From: Bacillota bacterium | Lineage (GTDB): Bacteria > Bacillota > Clostridia > Lachnospirales > Bianqueaceae | Assembly: GCA_017441925.1 (NCBI GenBank) | Contig: JAFRUE010000002.1 | Location: 62,001-126,000, forward strand | Reading direction: 5' to 3' | Length of the DNA: 64,000 nt | Shown: piece after piece, positions 53,211-56,821 of the stretch | Layout of the letters: every line of letters starts with the position of its first letter | Numbering within the stretch: the first letter of the stretch is position 1 | Position numbers and translations under genes: made by a program | Notes under the pieces: model-generated | The model's database searches: none | Told to the model about the DNA's origin: nothing | The model's input: the letters and a program-made list of their open reading frames with translations, nothing else

Positions 53211-53239
53211 ATTTTACTTCCTGAACCGCATTCTGTCAA
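53211..53239 (-). promoter_or_regulatory. Promoter of the polyol dehydrogenase gene... placed over the lipase stop
   Basis: Minus strand TTGACA (53234-53239), 17 bases, TAAAAT (53211-53216). Its -35 overlaps the TGA stop of the lipase gene (53236-53238). Confidence 0.72.
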
Positions 53240-54315
53240 TTCCCGAGTTTACCGATCGTTGTGATCAGATCTGTATAAAAACTCCGTATATCCGTCCTCC
53301 GGAACAGTCCTCCCTGCGGGGACATATGGCTGCTGTGCCTTACCGGGAGGACATTCCAGATGCCCGGCAGGATATTATCCGGATCGAATTTCCGGGAAGG
53401 ATCCGTCATCGGCGCTTTCTCTGAGATCGTATTGACAAGTCCGTCATTCTCCCGCCAGGTTTCGTCGAGGATGACCCCGCCGTGCGAGATGCCCTGATAA
53501 CAGCCGATCTGGCAGGAAGCTTTGATCATATGCGGCTCCATCTTCTTCCGTACAGGCACATGGTATCCTTCGTCATTCATCTGTGTGCAGCTGTATGGAA
53601 CGGAGAAATAATACGTCTCCGGATACAGGGCGATACGGCGGTTCAGTGCGAACGCGTTGTCGATGTGCATATCATAGGCAGCGCAGTCCTCCGGATGCAG
53701 GGACGCGGGACACTTCGTCCCTTTGGAAAGCAGCATTCCTCCGATTCGGCTTGCAAGCGACACTCTGACCGCTTCCGGATCAAAAGCCGGATCCTCATGA
53801 AGATCATAGGCGGTCGTCCCGTTGTGAGGCGCTGCGAGCGTCACGACAGCGTGGATCCGATTTCCCATACCGCCGGTAAAAAGATCCGATATCCCCTCGC
53901 CTTCTGAAGCCTCACGTTCTACAGCATCTCCGCGGTTCATCAGCTCTGCGAAAAGGCGTATCGTCGCTCCTCCGAAAGAATGTCCGAAAAGGACCAGCTT
54001 CCTGTCCCTGAACGTAGGGATCAACGGTTCTCTGGAATAATCCCTGCCGAACCGGGCATGTCCGTACCGCTCACTGTGCGCTTTGCCGTAATCCGTCACC
54101 GTCCCTGCCAGCTGAGCGTACAGCTCGCACGCGCGGTCCCAGGCACTGCCGTTCGGTGCGACCGATGCCGCATAGGCGTCATACCCTTCGTTCTGCAGAT
54201 ACGCGGTCAGGTCTCCTCCCAGCATGCCCCAGTACGGCATACGCTTGTAGGCCGCATCGTAACTCCCCCATCCGGCCAGGCCATGTACAAATATATACAT
54301 CCGTTTTTCTTTCAT
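53236..54315 (-). CDS. Lipase-like alpha/beta hydrolase
   Basis: A 359-residue hydrolase resembling the staphylococcal/thermoalkalophilic lipase family: YIFVHGLAGWG (oxyanion), nucleophile Ser in GHSFGGATIR, VVTLAAPHNGTT, and ENDGLVNTIS near the catalytic His region. Relatives are secreted; here no signal peptide follows the chosen start 54315 (GGGAAAG upstream). The frame reaches 54420 with a hydrophobic stretch (KILLFFFQLTRIHAIIGSVI), but that crosses the likely promoter at 54371-54399. Confidence 0.8.
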   Translation of the reverse strand: MKEKRMYIFVHGLAGWGSYDAAYKRMPYWGMLGGDLTAYLQNEGYDAYAASVAPNGSAWDRACELYAQLAGTVTDYGKAHSERYGHARFGRDYSREPLIPTFRDRKLVLFGHSFGGATIRLFAELMNRGDAVEREASEGEGISDLFTGGMGNRIHAVVTLAAPHNGTTAYDLHEDPAFDPEAVRVSLASRIGGMLLSKGTKCPASLHPEDCAAYDMHIDNAFALNRRIALYPETYYFSVPYSCTQMNDEGYHVPVRKKMEPHMIKASCQIGCYQGISHGGVILDETWRENDGLVNTISEKAPMTDPSRKFDPDNILPGIWNVLPVRHSSHMSPQGGLFRRTDIRSFYTDLITTIGKLGN

Positions 54316-54370
54316 ATCTTTCCCTGCTTTCTGTTCTCTTCGTTTTCCTTTACATGATATCACTGAACCG

Positions 54371-54399
54371 ATTATAGCATGAATCCTTGTAAGCTGAAA
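54371..54399 (-). promoter_or_regulatory. Promoter of the lipase-like gene
   Basis: Minus strand TATAAT (54371-54376) with an extended -10 TGC, and a weak -35 TTTCAG (54394-54399) at 17 bases. It supports the 54315 start, against an N-terminal hydrophobic extension. Confidence 0.6.
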
Positions 54400-54427
54400 G
54401 AAAAACAGCAATATTTTCAAAGATACC

Positions 54428-54456: not shown

Positions 54457-54497
54457 AGATCAGTTGTTATTCTCTTGAAGTAAAGTAAGGGAGAGCT

Positions 54498-56024
54498 ATG
54501 TCCAATCTGGAATTCATTCTAAAGAAACTGAAAGAAGCACTGTCCTGTGTGCTGCCGATCGTTACGGTCGTATCACTGCTGTGCCTCCTGTGGATCCCCA
54601 TGCGTACGGATCTGATGCTGGCCTTCCTGATTGGCGCGCTGTTTCTGGTCGTCGGGATGGGACTGTTCACACTAGGTTCGGAACTGTCCATGACCCAGAT
54701 CGGTACCCATATCGGCTCCCATCTGACCAGCTCCCGGAAACCTGTCCTGATCCTCGCCGTCAGTTTCGTACTCGGTTTTGCCATCACGCTTGCGGAGCCG
54801 GATCTGATGGTCCTCGCAAACAACGTCCCCAGTATCAACACGCTTGTACTGGTCATTGTTGTGTCTGTCGGTGTCGGCCTCTTTCTGATGTTGAGCATGC
54901 TGCGTATTCTGAACGGAATTACGCTGCGCTGGATGCTGATCGGTTTTTATCTGCTGGTATTCATCCTCGCGCTGCTATCGGATCGGGGTTTTATCCCTGT
55001 AGCCTTTGATGCGGGCGGTGTCACGACCGGTCCGATGACCGTACCCTTCGTCATGGCGCTTGGCGTCGGTGTCGCCTCCATCCGAAGTGACGAAAACGCG
55101 CAGAAAGACAGTTTCGGTCTTGTCGGACTTGCTTCGATCGGACCGATCCTCGTCGTCCTGCTCCTCGGTTTCATCTACAAGACGACTCCGGAGAAAAGCA
55201 GTCTGGGCAATACTGCTCTCTACGCAGATACCGTCGCGCTCGGCACGGACTATCTGCGAACGATTCCGGACAGTCTGCGCGAAATGCTTATGGCGCTACT
55301 GCCCATCGTTGTACTGTATCTGATATTCCAGCTTGTCGCGCTGCGCATGCAGAAAGCCGCTGTCCTGCGCATTGTTCTCGGCCTTGTACTGACGCTTGCG
55401 GGATTAACGCTCTTCCTGACAGGCGTACATGTCGGCTTCTCTCCGCTCGGTTATATTCTGGGCGAAAGCATGGCCGCCCTGCAGTTCAGATTTCTGCTTA
55501 TCCCGCTCGGTATGTTGATGGGCTGGTTCATCATACAGGCCGAGCCTGCCGTACACGTCTTGAACAAACAGGTCGAAGAGCTGAGCGGCGGCGCGATCTC
55601 CGCTAAATCCATGGGAATCAGCCTGTCGATCGCTGTCGCGGGAGCTGTCGGTCTGAGTATGCTGAGAGCGATTACAAATCTGCCGCTCCTCTGGCTGATC
55701 GGACCCGGATATCTGATCTCTCTGGCGCTTTCCTTCTTCGTCCCGGATACTTTTACCGCCATCGCGTTTGACTCCGGCGGTGTCGCCAGCGGACCTCTGA
55801 CCGCGGCGTTCCTGCTTCCTTTCGCCATGGGTGCCGTATCCGCAATGGGCGGCGATATTATGACGAATGCTTTCGGACTTGTCGCACTGGTGGCCATGAT
55901 GCCGCTGATTACCGTACAGATCATGGGGGTTGTCTCCGTCATCGTCTCCCGCCGCAGCGAAGCTGTTCCGGCCGCGGCTCCAGGGTATGGCGAGTACGAC
56001 GTGATCGAACTGTGGGAGATATAA
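54498..56024 (+). CDS. DUF1538 membrane protein (duplicated transporter-like)
   Basis: A 508-residue integral membrane protein with about 12-14 helices in two related halves. Each half carries the DUF1538 signature: VAFDAGGVTTGPMTVPF (about 167-183) and IAFDSGGVASGPLTAAF (about 422-438). The inverted or repeated signature in re-entrant-like positions is what one expects in a transporter or channel, but no substrate is known. TAAGGGAG precedes the ATG. The P-II-like gene begins one base after its stop, so the two are translated together. Confidence 0.85.
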   Translation: MSNLEFILKKLKEALSCVLPIVTVVSLLCLLWIPMRTDLMLAFLIGALFLVVGMGLFTLGSELSMTQIGTHIGSHLTSSRKPVLILAVSFVLGFAITLAEPDLMVLANNVPSINTLVLVIVVSVGVGLFLMLSMLRILNGITLRWMLIGFYLLVFILALLSDRGFIPVAFDAGGVTTGPMTVPFVMALGVGVASIRSDENAQKDSFGLVGLASIGPILVVLLLGFIYKTTPEKSSLGNTALYADTVALGTDYLRTIPDSLREMLMALLPIVVLYLIFQLVALRMQKAAVLRIVLGLVLTLAGLTLFLTGVHVGFSPLGYILGESMAALQFRFLLIPLGMLMGWFIIQAEPAVHVLNKQVEELSGGAISAKSMGISLSIAVAGAVGLSMLRAITNLPLLWLIGPGYLISLALSFFVPDTFTAIAFDSGGVASGPLTAAFLLPFAMGAVSAMGGDIMTNAFGLVALVAMMPLITVQIMGVVSVIVSRRSEAVPAAAPGYGEYDVIELWEI

Positions 56025-56025
56025 A

Positions 56026-56703
56026 ATGGAACTGTATTATGTAATGACGATCCTGGACCGTGACCAACGGGACAAACAGGAAAAGATCTACAAATCACTG
56101 GGACTGAATGTCGCGCTGACCATGATGGGCCGTGGTACCGCCACTCCCCATCATCTGGATATGCATGGACTGAGTCCGACCGAGAAAGCAATTGTTGCGA
56201 CTGTGGCAGACCGGCAGAAGACAAACGAACTCTTCCGGCAGACGATGCTCAAGCTTAACATCGACATCCCGGGTTATGGCATTATGGCCGCCATTCCCAT
56301 CAAAAGTATAGGAGGGATCAATACCGTGGCATATCTGACAGGACAGGAACCGCAAGGTTCAGAGAAACCGGATCTGAAATTTGATCATGAGCTGATCTAT
56401 GTCGTACTCAATGAGGGTCATGTCGACGAGGTCATGGCTGCTGCGCGTCCGGCCGGCGCTATGGGCGGCACAGTCATCAAGGCCAAGGGTTCCGGAGTCC
56501 ATCCGCCCGTGAAGTTCAAGAAGATCTCCATCACAAAAGAGCGGGAGGTCATCCTGATCGTCGCGAAATCCTCCAACAAAGCTGAAATCATGCGCGCGAT
56601 CATCGAGAAGGCAGGCATGCAGACCCCTGCCGGCGCCTTCTGTTTTTCCATGCCGGTCACGAAGGTGGCAGGATTGCGCAAACTGGACGACGAAGAAGAA
56701 TAA
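56026..56703 (+). CDS. Double P-II-like signalling protein
   Basis: A 225-residue protein made of two P-II-like halves: residues 1-105 (MELYYVMTILDRDQRDKQEK ... MAAIPIKSIGG) and about 118-215 (HELIYVVLNEGHVDEVMAAA, GGTVIKAKGS, EREVILIVAKSSNKAEIMRAI, GAFCFSMPVTKVAGL). Classical P-II proteins are 112-residue trimers that sense 2-oxoglutarate and ATP; the T-loop Tyr is not evident here. Location directly behind the DUF1538 gene suggests it gates that membrane protein, as GlnK does AmtB. Confidence 0.83.
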   Translation: MELYYVMTILDRDQRDKQEKIYKSLGLNVALTMMGRGTATPHHLDMHGLSPTEKAIVATVADRQKTNELFRQTMLKLNIDIPGYGIMAAIPIKSIGGINTVAYLTGQEPQGSEKPDLKFDHELIYVVLNEGHVDEVMAAARPAGAMGGTVIKAKGSGVHPPVKFKKISITKEREVILIVAKSSNKAEIMRAIIEKAGMQTPAGAFCFSMPVTKVAGLRKLDDEEE

Positions 56704-56762
56704 CATTCTCTCCTGGCTGCGCCTAGCTGTGCAGCATACGGTCACAAACGATATGATCATAC

Positions 56763-56811
56763 AAAAAACCAGCTGTCATCGGGTCTAAGCCTGATAACAG
56801 CTGATTTTTTT
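56763..56811. terminator. Bidirectional terminator
   Basis: CAGCTGT.ATCGGG pairs with CCTGAT.ACAGCTG; A-run before, T7 after, between convergent genes. Confidence 0.88.
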
Positions 56812-56821
56812 GTGTCCGTGA

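Follow-up and report, generated by a model that had tools for sequence, protein, structure and literature searches.

When a membrane protein of the DUF1538 family is followed at once by a protein that carries two P-II-like domains, the question arises whether the second governs the first and, if so, what is being transported. Such a pair lies in a stretch of 64,000 nucleotides from a Bacillota bacterium, the whole of which is called the window here. The preliminary description had likened the pair to GlnK-AmtB and proposed a metabolite-gated transporter. We consider it distinctly probable that the cassette encodes a P-II-gated monovalent cation/proton antiporter, built as an inverted repeat and supplied with a dedicated double P-II protein. 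What was computed comprises the family assignments, the P-II fold, the cassette, its fusions, the opposite charge bias of the transporter halves and the loss of canonical phosphate-binding residues from the P-II domains.

The pair makes up a bicistronic operon with exactly these two members, since the upstream gene is divergent and the downstream gene, which encodes an M14 carboxypeptidase, is convergent. The elements of the operon are the following.

54488 to 54495, + strand: AGGGAGAG, ribosome-binding sequence ahead of the transporter gene, read from the sequence
54498 to 56024, + strand: gene for the DUF1538-DUF1538 membrane transporter (508 aa; open reading frame and Pfam)
56014 to 56019, + strand: GGGAGA, within the 3' end of the transporter gene, ribosome-binding sequence for the P-II gene, read from the sequence
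56026 to 56703, + strand: gene for the double P-II protein (225 aa; open reading frame, Pfam, AlphaFold and PDB relatives)
56759 to 56815, no strand assigned: hairpin between A and T runs, a probable bidirectional terminator (-27.8 kcal/mol, z -6.5)

The transporter stop codon TAA (56022-56024) is followed by one spacer base and then by the P-II reading frame, which confirms the start at 56026 that had been placed one base behind the transporter. The position of GGGAGA inside the upstream gene makes translational coupling of the two genes likely. The hairpin, which a simple scan overlooked, would probably end transcription from both sides. On the 5' side of the operon, the divergent gene is lipase-like (Pfam Lip_C; 53236-54420 of the window).

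The transporter can be resolved into two halves, each with one copy of a characteristic motif.

54534 to 55178, + strand: first DUF1538 half, residues 13-227, its N-terminus predicted to be cytoplasmic (charge bias, family profile)
55005 to 55040, + strand: motif FDAGGVTTGPMT, residues 170-181, located where the model of the relative L123 has a helix break
55281 to 55934, + strand: second DUF1538 half, residues 262-479, predicted to be inverted with respect to the first
55767 to 55802, + strand: motif FDSGGVASGPLT, the second copy, residues 424-435 (sequence; model of the relative L123)

Pfam DUF1538 (PF07556) matches the reading frame in two stretches (E 3e-132; 438.8 bits vs a cut-off of 22.6) and is the only Pfam family found there, Amt (PF00909) not being among the matches. 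The halves match both the UmpA and the UmpB model of NCBIfam below the equivalog cut-offs (195 and 151 bits vs 490 and 500); these scores mark the protein as a homologue of UmpA/UmpB and at most a candidate equivalent. UmpAB of Halomonas zhaodongensis, the sole DUF1538 pair studied, acts as a Na+(Li+,K+)/H+ antiporter; it needs both subunits, and in E. coli these two were enough for activity (PMC5484666), so that a P-II protein is not needed for the basic activity. With this activity measured, the substrate of the family can no longer be called wholly unknown, as it had been. Common to the window and UmpAB are two homologous DUF1538 units that act together; the window differs in that the pair is one fused chain, scores below the equivalog cut-offs and has a P-II gene alongside. 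Moreover, a machine-learning study places DUF1538 beside cation transporters among growth-pH-linked features (PMC13255231). Both studies weigh against a competing reading in which the P-II protein gates the transporter and the cargo is something other than alkali cations, such as an organic acid, an amino acid or another anion, the UmpAB activity being limited to the halophile branch. That reading draws on the distance of the window protein from the UmpA/UmpB equivalogs, on the cassette being common in gut and rumen Clostridia, beyond halophiles, and on the control of nutrient uptake by P-II partners elsewhere; we judge it rather unlikely. In L086 (3801-5480) and L140 an extra DUF1538 stretch is seen (three domain calls per chain, or a third gene), which may represent split profile matches.

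The preliminary description had also likened duplicated FDxGGVxTGPMT signatures to paired re-entrant loops. Two copies are indeed present, and they coincide with helix breaks in the predicted structure of a close relative (L123), but the duplication is inexact, the first copy having VTTGPMT and the second VASGPLT. The L123 model, of the pair from Faecalibacterium sp. An122, was obtained from an in-frame chain, transporter and P-II modelled together, with a single internal stop read as glycine, and serves for helix positions only, interface scores being absent. Conserved acidic motifs (AEP and FD[A/S]GG) occur in each half at the helix breaks of this model, where motifs for ion coupling would be expected. 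A Foldseek search with the same model gave no confident PDB fold match for the membrane half, the only matches being weak and MATE-like (probability <=0.28).

How the two halves are oriented can be judged from their charges. Measured in identical alignment columns over alternating loops, the Lys+Arg bias of first halves averages +8.9 toward the N-terminal side (131/131) and that of second halves -5.0, on the opposite side (130/131). Split pairs show opposite biases too (30/30 and 30/30), and the signs hold when the boundaries are moved by as many as 4 residues. Seven helices are predicted for UmpA and UmpB each, in agreement with the L123 model, and antiparallel halves are the simplest arrangement that reconciles opposite charge bias with seven helices per unit; they would also explain why full activity requires both UmpA and UmpB. 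The UmpAB paper raises neither topology nor P-II (PMC5484666). In a tree, first- and second-type units separate fully (support 0.995) and lone genes form a clade of their own. The mean bias of lone DUF1538 genes (n=10) is +2.7, lowered yet above zero, an average that leaves out L047, L081 and L196 as mis-sorted pair members or cut genes. Since a lone gene is the sole DUF1538 in the nearly complete genomes G209 and G298, it must act as a homo-oligomer if two units are needed. The loci L219-L224, L100, L104, L108 and L109, where a lone DUF1538 of low charge bias accompanies a single P-II, are candidates for dual-topology homodimers. The transporter is thus read as probably an antiparallel inverted repeat of which the single-gene, paired and fused stages all survive. 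An antiparallel dual-topology arrangement has been described for DUF606 and Fluc; these families and SMR occur in single, paired and fused forms with balanced or opposite charge bias (PMC3962082, PMC3755343). DUF1538 has the same three forms and, in pairs and fused chains, the opposite bias. It differs from them in its P-II partner, which multiplies along with it, and in having seven helices per unit, a count that, being odd, permits direct fusion.

The second gene encodes the following domains.

56041 to 56319, + strand: N-terminal P-II domain, residues 6-98, diverged (AlphaFold and family profile)
56386 to 56676, + strand: C-terminal P-II domain, residues 121-217 (Pfam, AlphaFold and family profile)

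The Pfam P-II model passes for the C-terminal half only (31.6 bits vs a cut-off of 25), and both halves are picked up by a family profile constructed for this analysis (E 2.8e-20 for the N-terminal, 3.3e-26 for the C-terminal). AlphaFold predicts two beta-alpha-beta-beta-alpha-beta units (mean pLDDT 84). Profile and model together bear out the two P-II domains in one chain, and the P-II fold, whose absence from a predicted structure had been named at the outset as a refutation, is present in the model. The best natural PDB relatives of the model are GlnK1 structures (TM ~0.7, normalised by target). Searched against the PDB, a profile of single-domain relatives finds 9p1x ('P-II family nitrogen regulatory protein') first and GlnK1 next, and the Pfam P-II family is matched by 24/24 of these relatives. 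No relatives of the P-II protein were found in viral contigs.

Within this fold, the residues of the canonical GlnB/GlnK signature (basic residues in B-loop and C-loop, a full T-loop with its tyrosine) are not retained. The B-loop lysine (GDG[K/R]) has become Ile in most domains of the family and the C-loop basic residue Gly, and the T-loop, rightly described at the outset as unlike the classical one, is 5-6 residues shorter than the canonical form and without its tyrosine. In every class, >88% of domains retain the lysine that corresponds to GlnB K58, and C-terminal and single domains have an almost invariant threonine, which we take to be the one that contacts adenine in GlnB/GlnK structures. 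As the canonical ATP-phosphate residues are missing and the T-loop is short, the ligand is probably non-canonical; to judge from these residues, a nucleotide of the adenine type, bound in the absence of the customary contacts to a triphosphate, is more probable than the combination of ATP and 2-oxoglutarate.

The same residues bear on the idea of a normal adenylate/2-oxoglutarate nitrogen sensor, in which role the P-II protein would tie the transporter to nitrogen status. The P-II fold, the GlnK relatives and the retained K58-equivalent lysine accord with this, but the replacements in B-loop and C-loop and the short T-loop do not, nor does the fact that the same genome has, at another locus, an Amt with a canonical P-II attached, and we think it improbable. 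The Amt in question (L035, 3715-5442 on contig C4 of the window's own genome) carries its P-II at the C-terminus and lies beside asparagine-synthase-like, GlmS-like and glutamine-synthetase-like genes; a fusion among such nitrogen-assimilation-like genes shows that classical nitrogen sensing has its place there. In Gram-positive bacteria, c-di-AMP controls potassium transport. This would suit a P-II-like protein that is a c-di-AMP receptor of the PstA kind and ties alkali-cation exchange to that nucleotide, PstA being itself a P-II-like c-di-AMP receptor (PMC4316997). Against such a role, the Pfam PstA family was matched by 0/24 members tested, and the binding residues could not be mapped. Alphaproteobacteria carry the cassette as well, and they are mostly without c-di-AMP signalling; we hold the PstA-like role to be very unlikely.

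Our favoured reading, a dedicated P-II partner that gates the antiporter, is supported by the way the two genes occur together. Among 299 genomes sampled from the phylum, DUF1538 is present in 101, this P-II type in 101 and both in 100, which amounts to 100 of the 102 genomes with either (Fisher p 4e-78, kinship between genomes ignored). In 76 of the 80 best named DUF1538 loci a complete P-II gene lies directly downstream or in place; the remaining four stop at or within ~200 bases of a contig edge, and one of these four, L130, has its P-II gene cut. Across all loci read there are 177 DUF1538-to-P-II junctions. Every one of them has both genes on the same strand, and the gap between them has a median of -1 base. 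With DUF1538 in 86 of 245 genomes, the cassette is common but patchy in the window's class, and a trio of DUF1538, DUF1538 and P-II genes recurs on Methylocystis and Chelativorans plasmids (Alphaproteobacteria, a second phylum). The early suggestion of a transporter paired with a P-II-fold protein is well founded in this conservation, in the two DUF1538 domains and in the AlphaFold fold. Public annotation names the two proteins separately ('DUF1538 domain-containing protein' and 'P-II family nitrogen regulator'). Two consecutive DUF1538-DUF1538-P-II trios stand in tandem at L043 and L044. No other broadly recurring neighbour family was found around the cassette; the largest neighbour cluster was discarded as a shared gene, being an antisense reading of DUF1538 itself.

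Conservation of this kind could also arise if the genes were merely co-transcribed and the P-II protein acted on another target. Some support for this comes from the few loci (L051, L063 and L110) where a P-II gene of this family has no DUF1538 beside it; in genome G218, L063 and the DUF1538 gene (L064) lie on separate contigs and are not neighbours. The near-perfect co-occurrence and the lack of a third shared gene argue against it, as do natural DUF1538-P-II fusions in three families, and we give co-transcription alone very little credence. The fusions are single chains of DUF1538, DUF1538 and a C-terminal P-II (DD-P; 608-626 aa), found in five genomes. Their P-II domain is recognised by the family profile (E 3e-16 to 3e-17), the Pfam P-II model staying below threshold, and in 4/5 a double P-II gene lies upstream with a 4-base overlap. 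An apparent DUF1538-P-II-P-II fusion in L075 was rejected, as it spans a run of N. Judged by their sequences, the DD-P fusions are strong evidence for a physical complex, and, like the Amt-P-II fusions, they give substance to the proposed analogy with GlnK-AmtB. In both systems the P-II gene adjoins that of the transporter and is sometimes fused to its C-terminus; the window differs in having DUF1538 in place of Amt and in its type of P-II, mostly a double domain and devoid of the canonical nucleotide/2-oxoglutarate signature.

The double P-II is not special to the window locus. Among the states seen at other loci (P, P-P, PP and DD-P), the double form (PP) is the commonest, and P-II copies rise in step with DUF1538 units: lone DUF1538 genes are accompanied by one P-II domain (11 loci), split pairs by one in 12 loci and by two in 16, and a fused DUF1538 chain nearly always by a double P-II (121 loci). 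Conserved pairing and natural fusion make it very probable that the P-II protein controls the transporter.

What we infer beyond this concerns antiport by the window member, direct gating, the class of ligand and the stoichiometry. The first product would be a 14-helix transporter whose two seven-helix DUF1538 halves lie antiparallel in the membrane and which, in the manner of UmpAB, most likely exchanges a monovalent cation (Na+/K+/Li+) for H+; AEP and FD[A/S]GG at the helix breaks could couple the ions. The double P-II would bind the cytoplasmic face of the transporter, and a small ligand on it would switch transport on or off. An inner-face position follows from the C-terminal tail, predicted to be cytoplasmic by the charge rule, and from the natural P-II fusion there. 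Three PP chains would bring together six P-II domains, enough for a pair of trimers or for a single ring.

Two known systems offer partial parallels. In cyanobacteria, SbtB is a dedicated P-II-like protein with non-canonical ligands that is paired with SbtA, a cation-coupled bicarbonate transporter. The pairing is similar, but SbtB matches the family profile weakly and partially (E ~0.09) and its transporter belongs to a different family. NifI1 and NifI2 are two P-II subunits encoded together in nif operons, and they target nitrogenase. Like the window's protein they are a P-II pair, and they differ in that target; 9p1x, the best sequence match in the PDB, may presumably be of the NifI type, and the match is weak (E 1e-7).

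No description of the DUF1538-P-II link was found in literature naming DUF1538 or its Pfam accession, a search outside which subscription journals, and possibly an unseen account, lie. What appears to be new is the joining of a transporter family and a P-II subtype previously unlinked. A broader proposal, which we advance tentatively and rate at somewhat below even, would make DUF1538 a seven-helix dual-topology family that retains all inverted-repeat stages, its gating P-II duplicated and fused in step, and thereby a class, complete in itself, of P-II-gated cation/proton antiporters with a ligand foreign to canonical P-II. If the topology reading is true, DUF1538 would be a natural series for testing the origin of inverted-repeat transporters. 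Few transporters are known to be gated by P-II proteins, including the ones for ammonium and, via SbtB, bicarbonate. Present in about one third of the sampled phylum genomes and in a second phylum, the cassette would bring monovalent-cation and pH balance under P-II control. It would also give a role to the proteins that now carry the labels 'DUF1538' or 'P-II family nitrogen regulator'; a good number of these probably do not regulate nitrogen at all.
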